Assembly: GCA_021498125.1 (NCBI GenBank)
Contig: JAIZWL010000003.1
Span: 124,457-188,456 of the forward strand
DNA length: 64,000 nucleotides
Direction: 5' to 3'
Source of the DNA: Candidatus Thorarchaeota archaeon
GTDB taxonomy: Archaea; Asgardarchaeota; Thorarchaeia; Thorarchaeales; Thorarchaeaceae
In this document: piece after piece, positions 1,298 through 19,205 of the stretch
Numbering within the stretch: position 1 is the stretch's first letter
Layout: every line of letters begins with the position of its first letter
The notes under the pieces: generated by a model
Databases searched by the model: none
What the model saw: the letters and a program-made list of their open reading frames with translations, nothing else
What the model was told of the DNA's origin: nothing
Made by a program: the position numbers and the translations under genes

Positions 1298-1849
1298 CTA
1301 TGTCAGTGAAGTGCCCATGACTCTCTGGAGCATCTGGCCTAATCCCAGTCCCACTAACATATAGAATCCAAAGAAGTACATTCCAAAACCACCGGCCACT
1401 GGAGTTCCAACCCAGCCGATGAGAAATGGTATCAGCTTTTCAATGTGAAACGGAATGACCGCTACGATGATGGGGGTTCCTCCCGCACCTATGTAAAAGC
1501 CATTAAGAAACGAGAAGATGAGCATGAATGGAATGATGAAAAACATGTATGGTTTACACCGTGCAGTCATCATCTCTTTCTGAATACGGTCAATATAGGG
1601 TTTGCGACGCTTCACCTTTCGTAGCAGCTTCTCATTCCCTGCCTCGTTTGCCTTCTTTGACAGCTCTTGGTACGCCTTGATCTCCGCCTGATATCTCTTC
1701 AGTCGTCGAACATCTGAGAATTTTAGCATGGCGAGGTTGCTGATGAAGGTGATCCCCACCGACACCGCCATGATTAGAATCGCCGACATTGGCGGATCTT
1801 TGAAGTATAATGTGAACCAATCGGTAAGAGCCGCAAAGATGTCCTGCAT
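1298..1849 (-). CDS. EMC3/TMCO1-like membrane protein insertase (DUF106, Oxa1 superfamily)
   Basis: A 183-residue membrane protein of the archaeal DUF106 family, a member of the YidC/Oxa1/GET1/EMC3 superfamily that inserts membrane proteins. It has one membrane segment near residues 20-42, a basic coiled-coil hairpin (about 43-95, rich in Lys, Arg and Glu), then two further hydrophobic segments (about 100-120 and 145-175). This TM1, cytosolic coiled coil, TM2-3 layout is diagnostic. It follows adk by 6 bases. Its place beside eL34, cmk and eL14 is the conserved archaeal context downstream of secY, although secY itself is 42 kb away here. Confidence 0.85.
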   Translation of the reverse strand: MQDIFAALTDWFTLYFKDPPMSAILIMAVSVGITFISNLAMLKFSDVRRLKRYQAEIKAYQELSKKANEAGNEKLLRKVKRRKPYIDRIQKEMMTARCKPYMFFIIPFMLIFSFLNGFYIGAGGTPIIVAVIPFHIEKLIPFLIGWVGTPVAGGFGMYFFGFYMLVGLGLGQMLQRVMGTSLT

Positions 1850-16934: not shown

Positions 16935-17085
16935 CCTGCATATCGGCTCTGTGTGAAAAGTCAGTGAAATAGTGATCATGAGAAGTATGAACACCATTTT
17001 GCGATCGAATCCAAAACGTTTCGGGATCCATTCTGACTTGAACGATCTATGTCTGTGGACTTTTCACACAGCTCCCTGCATATCG
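16935..17085. mobile_element. MITE-like insertion, 129 bp, with flanking direct repeats
   Basis: An 11-base direct repeat CCTGCATATCG occurs at 16935-16945 and 17075-17085. Between them is a 129-base segment whose ends carry inverted repeats: CTGTGTGAAAAGTC at 16949-16962 and its reverse complement at 17058-17071. The arrangement (target duplication, terminal inverted repeats, no coding capacity) is that of a miniature transposable element. The right repeat abuts a TATA-like box (17091-17097) for the GET3 gene. The transposon family was not identified. Confidence 0.65.
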
Positions 17086-17119: not shown

Positions 17120-18094
17120 GTGTTTACGATGAACCTTCGAGATATCATTTACGATAAGGATATCAAATTTATCCTCTCTGGCGGTAAGGGTGGTGTTGGT
17201 AAGACAAGCTGCGCCGGAGCCATTGCTGTTCTCTCAGCCGAATACGGGCTGCGCACACTTGTGATCTCTACAGATCCGGCTCACAGCCTCAGTGATAGCA
17301 TTGATCAGAACCTCTCTGGTGGCGATGTTATCAAGGTCGAAGGCATCGATAATCTATGGGGGATGGAGATTAACACCGAAAAAGGGATGCGTGAGTTCCA
17401 AGAGAACCTTGGCCAGATGCAAGGACCTGAGGTCGAGATGGCATCACAATTAATGGGTGGAATGGATAGTATGCCCCCCCCCGGCTCAGATGAGGCCATG
17501 GCCTTTGGAAAGATGCTGGAGTTCATAGGCGACCCCAATTATGATCGGGTGGTCTTCGATACTGCACCTACTGGGCATACTCTCAAACTGCTTGAGCTAC
17601 CCGACCTATTGGACAGCTGGCTGGGTAAGATGTTGACTCTTAGGCAGCGTATCAGTTCTATGATGTCTGGTTTCAAGGCATTCCTTGGTGGTGCTGCTCC
17701 TGAGGAGGATGACTCGTGGAAGATGTTGCAACAGACCAAAGAGAAGATCCGTGCTGCAAGCGTCATGCTGGCCGATGAAAAGCTGACGCAGTTTGTTGTT
17801 GTCATGATCCCCGAGGCGATGGCAGTCTTTGAGACCCAGCGTCTTCTCTCCAGTCTGAATAAATGGAGCATCCCCGTGAGCAATATCATCGTCAATCAGC
17901 TTGTTCCAGAGAACCCATCGTGTCCCTTCTGTACAAGTCGGCGACGTATGCAACAGTCCAACCTTGTCGATATCAGGGAGTTGTATCATGACCTCCATGT
18001 CACAGAGGTACCGCTCTTTGACCATGAGATCCGAGGAATAGATGAACTTAGAAGGCTCGGGCACATACTAATCAACGAGGAGACCACACAATGA
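17120..18094 (+). CDS. get3: GET3/ArsA-type ATPase
   Basis: A 324-residue deviant-Walker ATPase. The P-loop GGKGGVGKTS (21-30) has the signature lysine; switch I STDPAHSLSDS (50-60) and switch II DTAPTGHTLKLLELP (147-161) are those of GET3/TRC40. A CPFC pair (C268, C271) corresponds to the zinc-binding, dimerising CxxC of tail-anchored-protein targeting factors, favouring GET3 over arsenite-pump ArsA. The Met-rich stretch (MASQLMGGMDSMPPPG) fits a hydrophobic client groove. GTG 17120 has GGAG 7 bases upstream. Its stop overlaps a 32-residue membrane microprotein. Confidence 0.9.
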   Translation: MFTMNLRDIIYDKDIKFILSGGKGGVGKTSCAGAIAVLSAEYGLRTLVISTDPAHSLSDSIDQNLSGGDVIKVEGIDNLWGMEINTEKGMREFQENLGQMQGPEVEMASQLMGGMDSMPPPGSDEAMAFGKMLEFIGDPNYDRVVFDTAPTGHTLKLLELPDLLDSWLGKMLTLRQRISSMMSGFKAFLGGAAPEEDDSWKMLQQTKEKIRAASVMLADEKLTQFVVVMIPEAMAVFETQRLLSSLNKWSIPVSNIIVNQLVPENPSCPFCTSRRRMQQSNLVDIRELYHDLHVTEVPLFDHEIRGIDELRRLGHILINEETTQ

Positions 18095-18189
18095 GATACG
18101 CGGTTCGAAAAAAGATCCTATCCTTTCTCTTCCTGTTACTGTTCATTGCATCTCTTGTTGCAGCAGCCTACCTTGTATTCAAAGGTTAA
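18091..18189 (+). CDS. 32-residue single-span membrane microprotein coupled to GET3
   Basis: The ATG overlaps the GET3 TGA stop as ATGA. The product starts MRYAVRKKI, followed by a hydrophobic helix (about residues 10-29) and ends in KG, so it is a basic N-terminus plus a single C-terminal membrane span: a minimal tail-anchored topology. It is too short for standard gene callers. The four-base overlap makes translation by coupling likely. It could be a client, regulator or membrane receptor of GET3; none of these is proven. Confidence 0.65.
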   Translation: MRYAVRKKILSFLFLLLFIASLVAAAYLVFKG

Positions 18190-18356: not shown

Positions 18357-19205
18357 TTGAATATAGATGCCAATAAAATGTGGTTCCTTTTCATCCTTGG
18401 TGCAGGTCTGCTTATAGGACTGATTCCAATCCTCATCATACTATTTGGTGGGATCGATTGGTTCTATCTGACACAACTCCAGTTCTGGCCGCTCTTGGTC
18501 ATATATGTGATAATCGGCTACTTCCTGTTTTGGTTTGGGCTGACTTTACTGTCTGCTGCTCCATGGATCGATGACAAAAAAGTCGCCAGCGTTAGTACCT
18601 ACATCATTTCCATTTTCAAGGCTATTATTTTAATAATGCTTCTCTATGGTCTGTTCAGAGGACTTGTTCCTGATGATGTGTTTGTGATTGGGACAACATA
18701 CGTGATATTATTAATAATTAGTGGGACTGCTAATCTGGCAATCCCGCGAAGGCGAGAGAAAATGATTCGTGATCAAAGTAAAACGGCTCGCAAAAAAGTG
18801 TTAAAATTAATAAACCAGGCAGATAACAATCTCAAGAAAAAGGACTTCAAGAATTTCTATATGGATCTCACTCGCGCACTAGAGCAGACATTCAGGAACA
18901 TAGATGCGAGCCGGTATAGGTTTTCTTTTACAACTCAGTTGCTTATGTGGCGAACTTGGTTTGATGACACGCTCGCTAACAATCTCGAAACGGCAAAACG
19001 ATTCTTCTCTGCAAAGAAGCTAGGCATCAATAAACAAAAGCTCAAGCGTTTGTGGAACTCGACAGATGATCTACGTAAAGCTCGGAATATCGCCGCTCAT
19101 AAAGATAAACTCGGTAAACTTCGAACTTCACCTGAATCAATATTTGATGATGTACGCCTACTGATCACATCTATTGAGAATTGGCGTTCAAAAAATATTA
19201 GGTGA
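18357..19205 (+). CDS. Four-span membrane protein with C-terminal HEPN-like domain
   Basis: A 282-residue protein. Four hydrophobic segments (about 8-30, 43-68, 82-102, 107-128) are followed by a basic cytoplasmic helical domain (133-282). In that domain RNIAAH gives R243 and H248, the Rx4H signature of HEPN ribonuclease-like domains, with the flanking helices expected. TTG 18357 is preceded by AGGGGA at good spacing and a TATA-like TTTATATC at about 18312. It is AT-rich relative to its neighbours. A membrane-tethered HEPN RNase or a DUF4129/DUF4145-like protein are the alternatives; the HEPN reading is by motif only. Confidence 0.6.
   Translation: MNIDANKMWFLFILGAGLLIGLIPILIILFGGIDWFYLTQLQFWPLLVIYVIIGYFLFWFGLTLLSAAPWIDDKKVASVSTYIISIFKAIILIMLLYGLFRGLVPDDVFVIGTTYVILLIISGTANLAIPRRREKMIRDQSKTARKKVLKLINQADNNLKKKDFKNFYMDLTRALEQTFRNIDASRYRFSFTTQLLMWRTWFDDTLANNLETAKRFFSAKKLGINKQKLKRLWNSTDDLRKARNIAAHKDKLGKLRTSPESIFDDVRLLITSIENWRSKNIR

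Follow-up and report, generated by a model that had tools for sequence, protein, structure and literature searches.

A tail-anchored-like membrane microprotein encoded directly after get3 in Thorarchaeota and two other Asgard families

Introduction

Is a protein of only 32 residues, encoded directly after get3 in a Thorarchaeota genome, a partner of Get3 at the membrane, one of its clients, or an unrelated neighbor? Archaea possess Get3 and insertases of the DUF106/EMC3 type. Get2, however, was not found in a published survey covering nine archaeal proteomes (PMC8675477); no membrane receptor of Get3 is accordingly known in archaea, and the route of Get3 to the membrane is in question. In Asgard archaea, which are relatives of eukaryotes, a membrane microprotein whose gene is fixed to get3 offers a concrete, testable candidate for a membrane partner of Get3. 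The pair lies in a stretch of 64,000 nucleotides, hereafter the window, in which the following features are relevant:

17120 to 18094, plus strand: get3, encoding a single-domain Get3/TRC40-type ATPase of 324 aa with a GTG start (Pfam, phmmer, Foldseek and motifs)
18076 to 18090, plus strand: end of the get3 coding sequence, aacgaggagaccaca, with an SD-like GAGGAG (position by direct reading)
18091 to 18189, plus strand: gene of a 32-aa tail-anchored-like membrane microprotein (ORF, conservation, purifying selection, AF2 helix and HMM search)
1298 to 1849, minus strand: DUF106/EMC3-type archaeal Oxa1 insertase gene (PF01956, E=3e-16), adjoining an adenylate-kinase-like gene

The get3 gene and its product

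The first gene of the pair encodes a true Get3-type ATPase, like the archaeal Get3/TRC40 proteins of known structure (3zq6, 3ug6/3ug7), as judged by sequence, fold, the CxxC motif and the TRC40 insert. The ORF map and the sequence place its stop codon, TGA, at 18092-18094; an alternative start is available at ATG 17129, and the alignment of relatives begins at residue 4. The protein matches PF02374 (ArsA_ATPase) in Pfam with E=4e-91, and the nearest solved archaeal chains found by phmmer are the Get3 proteins of M. thermautotrophicus (E=4e-76) and M. jannaschii (E=6e-70), the best overall sequence match being algal ArsA1, itself grouped with the Get3-like TA factors. A Foldseek search with the AF2 model returned archaeal Get3 3zq6 (E=3e-27) and 3ug7 as the best matches, followed by yeast Get3-TA complexes. 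The deviant Walker A motif is GGKGGVGKTS at residues 21-30. The CxxC motif, CPFC at residues 268-271, is invariant in Thorarchaeota and kept in nearly all Asgard rows of the alignment, the Zn-binding CxxC being a feature of most Get3s, not all. The TRC40 insert, with the helical client-binding subdomain, aligns with archaeal and human Get3; two segments modeled by AF2 as helices with low confidence (98-118 and 174-196) fall within this subdomain, a mobile part of the Get3s already known. A preliminary description of the locus, made from the sequence, had proposed a Get3 with a CxxC motif and a Met-rich groove. The Get3 identity is borne out by the Pfam and Foldseek matches, and the CxxC motif is present; the client groove in the helical subdomain is indeed Met-rich in Thorarchaeota, but this is not a general trait, as the Met content differs among Asgard families. 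The only other PF02374 match in the genome is weak and covers 38 residues, leaving get3 as the sole ArsA/Get3-type gene there. The window get3 is 92-93% identical to that of a Thorarchaeota MAG, and all its near relatives are from Thorarchaeota.

Anatomy of the microprotein

The ATG of the second gene (18091-18093) overlaps the get3 stop codon as ATGA, and the gene ends with TAA at 18187-18189. Its 32-aa product, MRYAVRKKILSFLFLLLFIASLVAAAYLVFKG, has a basic N-terminal stretch followed by a single transmembrane helix and a tail of two residues, and lacks a signal peptide. AF2 models a single helix over residues 4-30 with a pLDDT of 90, and the same anatomy is found across the homologues. The charges are distributed as R2, R6, K7 and K8 versus K31, basic character being conserved at positions 2, 6 and 8, and the positive-inside rule, used here as the only guide, predicts an N-in/C-out topology. 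K8 is invariant in all Thorarchaeota microproteins, and S21, like M1, is kept throughout Thorarchaeota and two further Asgard families, f9 and f12. The conserved positions other than the basic ones (11, 14, 17/18, 21, 25, 28 and 32) lie on one helix face, and conservation shows a periodicity near 105 degrees, a modest signal (shuffle P=0.02).

Regarding membrane insertion, the ribosome exit tunnel accommodates about 30-40 residues (PMC13261788). A chain of 32 residues, too short to exit the ribosome before termination, has no means of co-translational targeting through its own helix, and its insertion is necessarily post-translational. In its predicted structure, the microprotein fits a minimal tail-anchored protein, with a single transmembrane helix lying in the last 30-40 or so residues of the chain and no signal peptide, which agrees with the initial view of it as a basic head plus one membrane helix and as tail-anchored-like. 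Get3 is a candidate insertion route for it in archaea. The 27-aa E. coli protein YohP, which is inserted post-translationally by SRP (PMC7549839), resembles the microprotein in size class, single helix and obligatory post-translational insertion; the likeness is one of size and anatomy, with no sequence relation claimed, and the YohP gene, unlike that of the microprotein, is not linked to a targeting factor.

Searches for a described family of small proteins gave no Pfam match above the cut-off (best E 0.017-0.05, unrelated) and nothing above the cut-off in NCBIfam (best 0.039, in one member). Identities such as COX7a, suggested by sub-threshold Pfam and NCBIfam matches, were rejected, these matches being mostly to other single-helix proteins. 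No description of a membrane microprotein co-encoded with Get3 was found in the literature searched. Thus, the microprotein is undescribed as far as Pfam, NCBIfam and the searched literature reach, the GET pathway itself being already known.

Conservation in Thorarchaeota

The sample comprised 41 non-redundant Thorarchaeota get3 loci that were not cut at a contig end. A homologous ORF starts at -1 to +8 nt from the get3 stop codon in 41/41 of them, encoding mostly 32 aa (n=31) and otherwise 33 (n=5), 34 (n=3) or 36 aa (n=2), with ATG (23), TTG (10) or GTG (8) as the start codon. The preliminary description had emphasized the overlap of the get3 stop codon with the microprotein ATG. This ATGA arrangement is present in the window, but a start at -1 occurs in only 9/41 loci and the remainder start 2-8 nt past the get3 stop codon, showing that the exact overlap is not the conserved trait. 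An SD core precedes the microprotein in 39/41 loci, as GGAGGA in 24 and mostly 6-10 nt from the start. In 39 loci it falls within the final codons of get3, and the terminal Glu-Glu codons of many Thorarchaeota Get3s double as the SD. From this spacing and the SD, translational coupling of get3 and the microprotein gene is plausible. A programmed fusion or read-through from Get3 into the microprotein was rejected as a general mechanism because the frame relation varies (-1, +2, +3, +4, +5, +6 and +8). In most loci, the two genes are the sole co-directional pair, an isolated two-gene unit whose upstream neighbor is divergent and whose downstream neighbors are convergent.

The possibility that the ORF is an artefact in the 3' region of get3 draws on the finding that shuffled downstream DNA yields such an ORF in about 4.5% of cases, so that a single instance would be no proof. 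Its probability is negligible in view of conservation in more than 50 loci, the SD, purifying selection and the reading frame itself: frame 0 has no stop codon in any of the 41 loci, and the other two frames have stops in 41/41 and 13/41. In close pairs, the pN/pS of the ORF is 0.07-0.36; divergence at the three codon positions is 0.44/0.30/0.64, with the third position the highest; and nucleotide identity is 0.545 within the ORF versus 0.278 just downstream. A base rate drawn from gene ends in the window and the Thorarchaeota loci gave a comparable ORF after other genes at 1/172 ends, versus 36/36 get3 ends in the same loci. The selection and divergence data, together with these control ends, rule out a chance ORF; the microprotein gene is real, under purifying selection and far beyond chance. 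An HMM profile search detected the microprotein in 45/47 Thorarchaeota genomes. Of the two genomes with no profile match, get3 lies at a contig end in one and is absent from the other (G024).

Other Asgard families

Reading past get3 in other Asgard archaea revealed an ORF of the same kind in families f9 (6/6 loci) and f12 (3/3 loci). The initial description thus clearly withstood its own check, a search for a transmembrane microprotein after get3 in relatives, which found one in these families as well as in Thorarchaeota. The f9 and f12 microproteins have 32-38 aa, an SD before the start (GGTGA in many) and S21. They are likely to be homologous to those of Thorarchaeota, judging from length, position, K/R pattern and S21, features that in a hydrophobic sequence of 32 residues constitute no proof; the Thorarchaeota-only profile matches just one f9 copy (E=0.045). 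Across the three Asgard families, the microprotein gene is real, conserved, of membrane type and consistently tied to get3. It is absent after get3 in every other Asgard family inspected, and the majority of Asgard families have a Get3 but no microprotein. In the Get3 tree, Thorarchaeota, f9 and f12 are not sisters, and the presence of the microprotein needs three state changes. The association is either ancestral with losses or of repeated origin, and either way suggests a functional link of the microprotein to Get3. Outside Jordarchaeia, profile searches for the microprotein elsewhere in other Asgard genomes gave noise-level matches, mostly within long ORFs, and nothing consistent was seen among transmembrane microproteins upstream of get3 in other Asgard families.

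In Jordarchaeia (f11), a small ORF stands apart from get3, between a Ras-like GTPase gene and DUF763, in four genomes (L124, L125, L126 and L127 in G126, G127, G048 and G128, respectively). It encodes 27-29 aa with a single helix, has a TTG start and an SD, and shows a pN/pS of 0.08-0.39. Its sequence, M[RW]RKI(x)nLLF(I/L)G(S/T)..., has the K-x12-[ST] spacing of the microprotein, and it is a probable relocated homologue, unlinked from get3. Linkage to get3 would then not be obligatory, and no other finding indicates as strongly as this ORF that the microprotein can exist away from get3. Among the four genomes, G048 has no detectable get3 (99% complete, but in 540 contigs), and in another get3 reaches a contig end. 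Separately, a Jordarchaeia get3 (L069, G127:C81:17437-18366) contains an in-frame TGA and TAG in the assembly, which may reflect sequencing error, a frameshift or decay.

Possible functions of the microprotein

It is possible, and we tentatively hold, that the microprotein serves Get3 as a small membrane partner, which Get3 itself delivers and which then acts between Get3 and an insertase. In such a mechanism, get3 and the microprotein gene would form a two-gene operon, and the product would be a minimal tail-anchored protein with its basic N-terminus inside, its helix across the membrane and two to few residues outside. Once inserted, its basic head would recruit Get3, and the conserved helix face, K8-S11-F14-L17/F18-S21-A25-L28, would pack on a membrane protein, for which the archaeal DUF106/EMC3-EMC6 insertase is the most plausible choice. 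We infer the topology, the delivery by Get3, the docking role and the insertase contact. More doubtful is the specific form of this idea, that of a dedicated archaeal Get3 receptor or adaptor, a one-helix functional counterpart of Get2 that is self-inserted and hands Get3-TA to DUF106/EMC3-EMC6.

In the literature searched, no membrane microprotein was found to be co-encoded with known Get3/TRC40 systems, unlike in the Thorarchaeota pair. The basic cytosolic N-terminus at the membrane may be likened to the RERR motif of Get2/CAML in recruiting Get3; however, Get2 has three transmembrane helices and a long cytosolic domain, in contrast to a single helix and a cytosolic part of about 8 residues in the microprotein. 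No search run detected homology to Get2/CAML, and the likeness is a functional analogy only. In yeast, the "DELYED" surface of Get3 binds Get1 and the Get2 RERR motif (PMC11594295). This surface is kept in Thorarchaeota Get3 as ...IRELYHDLH (RELYHD in the window), but an acidic surface resembling the Get2-docking site is equally kept in Asgard Get3s with no microprotein and is thus non-discriminating; among the regions compared, no Get3 surface correlated with the presence of the microprotein. The archaeal insertase subunits DUF106/EMC3 and EMC6 have been proposed as relatives of Get1/Get2 (PMC8675477, PMC8887752). They span the membrane several times, have no sequence relation to the microprotein, which does not match the Oxa1-superfamily three-TM core PF01956, and are encoded by separate genes; they are candidate membrane partners, and the same genome carries two DUF106/EMC3 genes (the second on another contig) and one EMC6 homologue.

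The presence of these insertase genes and the absence of Get2 from the nine-proteome survey count for the adaptor, as do the complete linkage in Thorarchaeota against 1/172 control ends, its occurrence in non-sister families, the isolated unit, S21 and K8, and the periodicity. Against it count the many Asgard Get3s with no microprotein, the probable Jordarchaeia homologue located off get3, the G048 genome with no get3, a cytosolic head far below the Get2 cytosolic domain in size, and the modesty of the periodicity signal. A Get3 that comes with no microprotein in most Asgard families, and a probable unlinked homologue in Jordarchaeia, would equally suit an operon passenger, namely a conserved small membrane protein unrelated to Get3 and adjacent by chance or for shared expression. 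This is unlikely given the linkage in three families that are non-sister in the Get3 tree, the isolated two-gene unit and the Thorarchaeota genome (G024) in which both genes are missing.

The microprotein could also be a dedicated client, that is, TA cargo co-expressed with its chaperone Get3 and serving as a small subunit of another membrane complex. The minimal TA anatomy and the necessarily post-translational insertion suit this reading, the operon would couple chaperone with cargo, S21 and the helix-face conservation would reflect contact with its real complex, and the standalone probable homologue in Jordarchaeia agrees with it. Yet it is not obvious why a targeting factor that serves many clients should stay locked to one of them for so long, and the get3-microprotein unit contains no second conserved partner gene; we regard it as rather unlikely. 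Both the client and the passenger are nevertheless serious rivals to a membrane partner. If it is a client only, the microprotein would still supply archaeal Get3 with a built-in reporter substrate. A translationally coupled pseudo-client, occupying the Get3 groove until released at the insertase and thereby reporting insertion capacity or keeping client-free Get3 closed, is distinctly improbable. The overlapping or abutting start and the SD within get3 would provide stoichiometry with Get3, and a single hydrophobic helix of this length suits the groove; such a ligand, however, needs hydrophobicity and not an invariant mid-helix Ser plus a fixed basic head. The conserved polar residue within the helix points to contact with another protein in the membrane and speaks against a purely hydrophobic plug, and S21 together with the conserved face suggests a specific partner, beyond the needs of a generic client. 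The initial description had offered a membrane receptor, a built-in substrate and an inhibitor as options. On this pattern of residues, the helix face and the basic head appear to favor a specific membrane partner over a mere client or inhibitor. The microprotein may also offer a natural minimal client for reconstituting the archaeal GET pathway, and it illustrates how a gene of some 32 codons, of a size that annotation readily overlooks, can belong universally to an Asgard operon.

Gene neighborhood and minor observations

The gene order in Thorarchaeota is endA-like (minus), DUF47/PhoU-like (minus), BacA (plus), phosphodiesterase/PglZ-like (minus), get3 (plus) and microprotein (plus), followed by rpoP (minus), radical SAM (minus), SUI1 (plus) and TFIIB (minus), the names other than BacA and get3 having been assigned by eye from the sequences. 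The phosphodiesterase/PglZ-like neighbor upstream of get3 has no Pfam match. The surroundings include a conserved information-processing neighborhood (endA-like, rpoP, SUI1 and TFIIB; loci L036-L071), and a SUI1-like gene, a conserved neighbor in Thorarchaeota, is also located about 500 nt downstream in f9 loci L079 and L083. The window contains an extra membrane ORF of 282 aa between the microprotein gene and rpoP (18357-19205, plus strand), with no Pfam match and no relative at the corresponding place in other Thorarchaeota loci. In genome G221, the get3-microprotein pair is followed after about 600 nt by a second, possibly degenerate copy of the microprotein (L131, 882-1007, minus strand).

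A MITE-like element of 129 bp occupies positions 16946-17074 of the window, 45 nt upstream of the get3 start; none was found upstream of get3 in other Thorarchaeota loci. It is bounded by 14-bp perfect terminal inverted repeats and flanked by an 11-bp target duplication, CCTGCATATCG, at 16935-16945 and 17075-17085. About 33 substantial copies are present genome-wide, several of them 97-100% identical, and these near-identical copies imply recent movement of the element.
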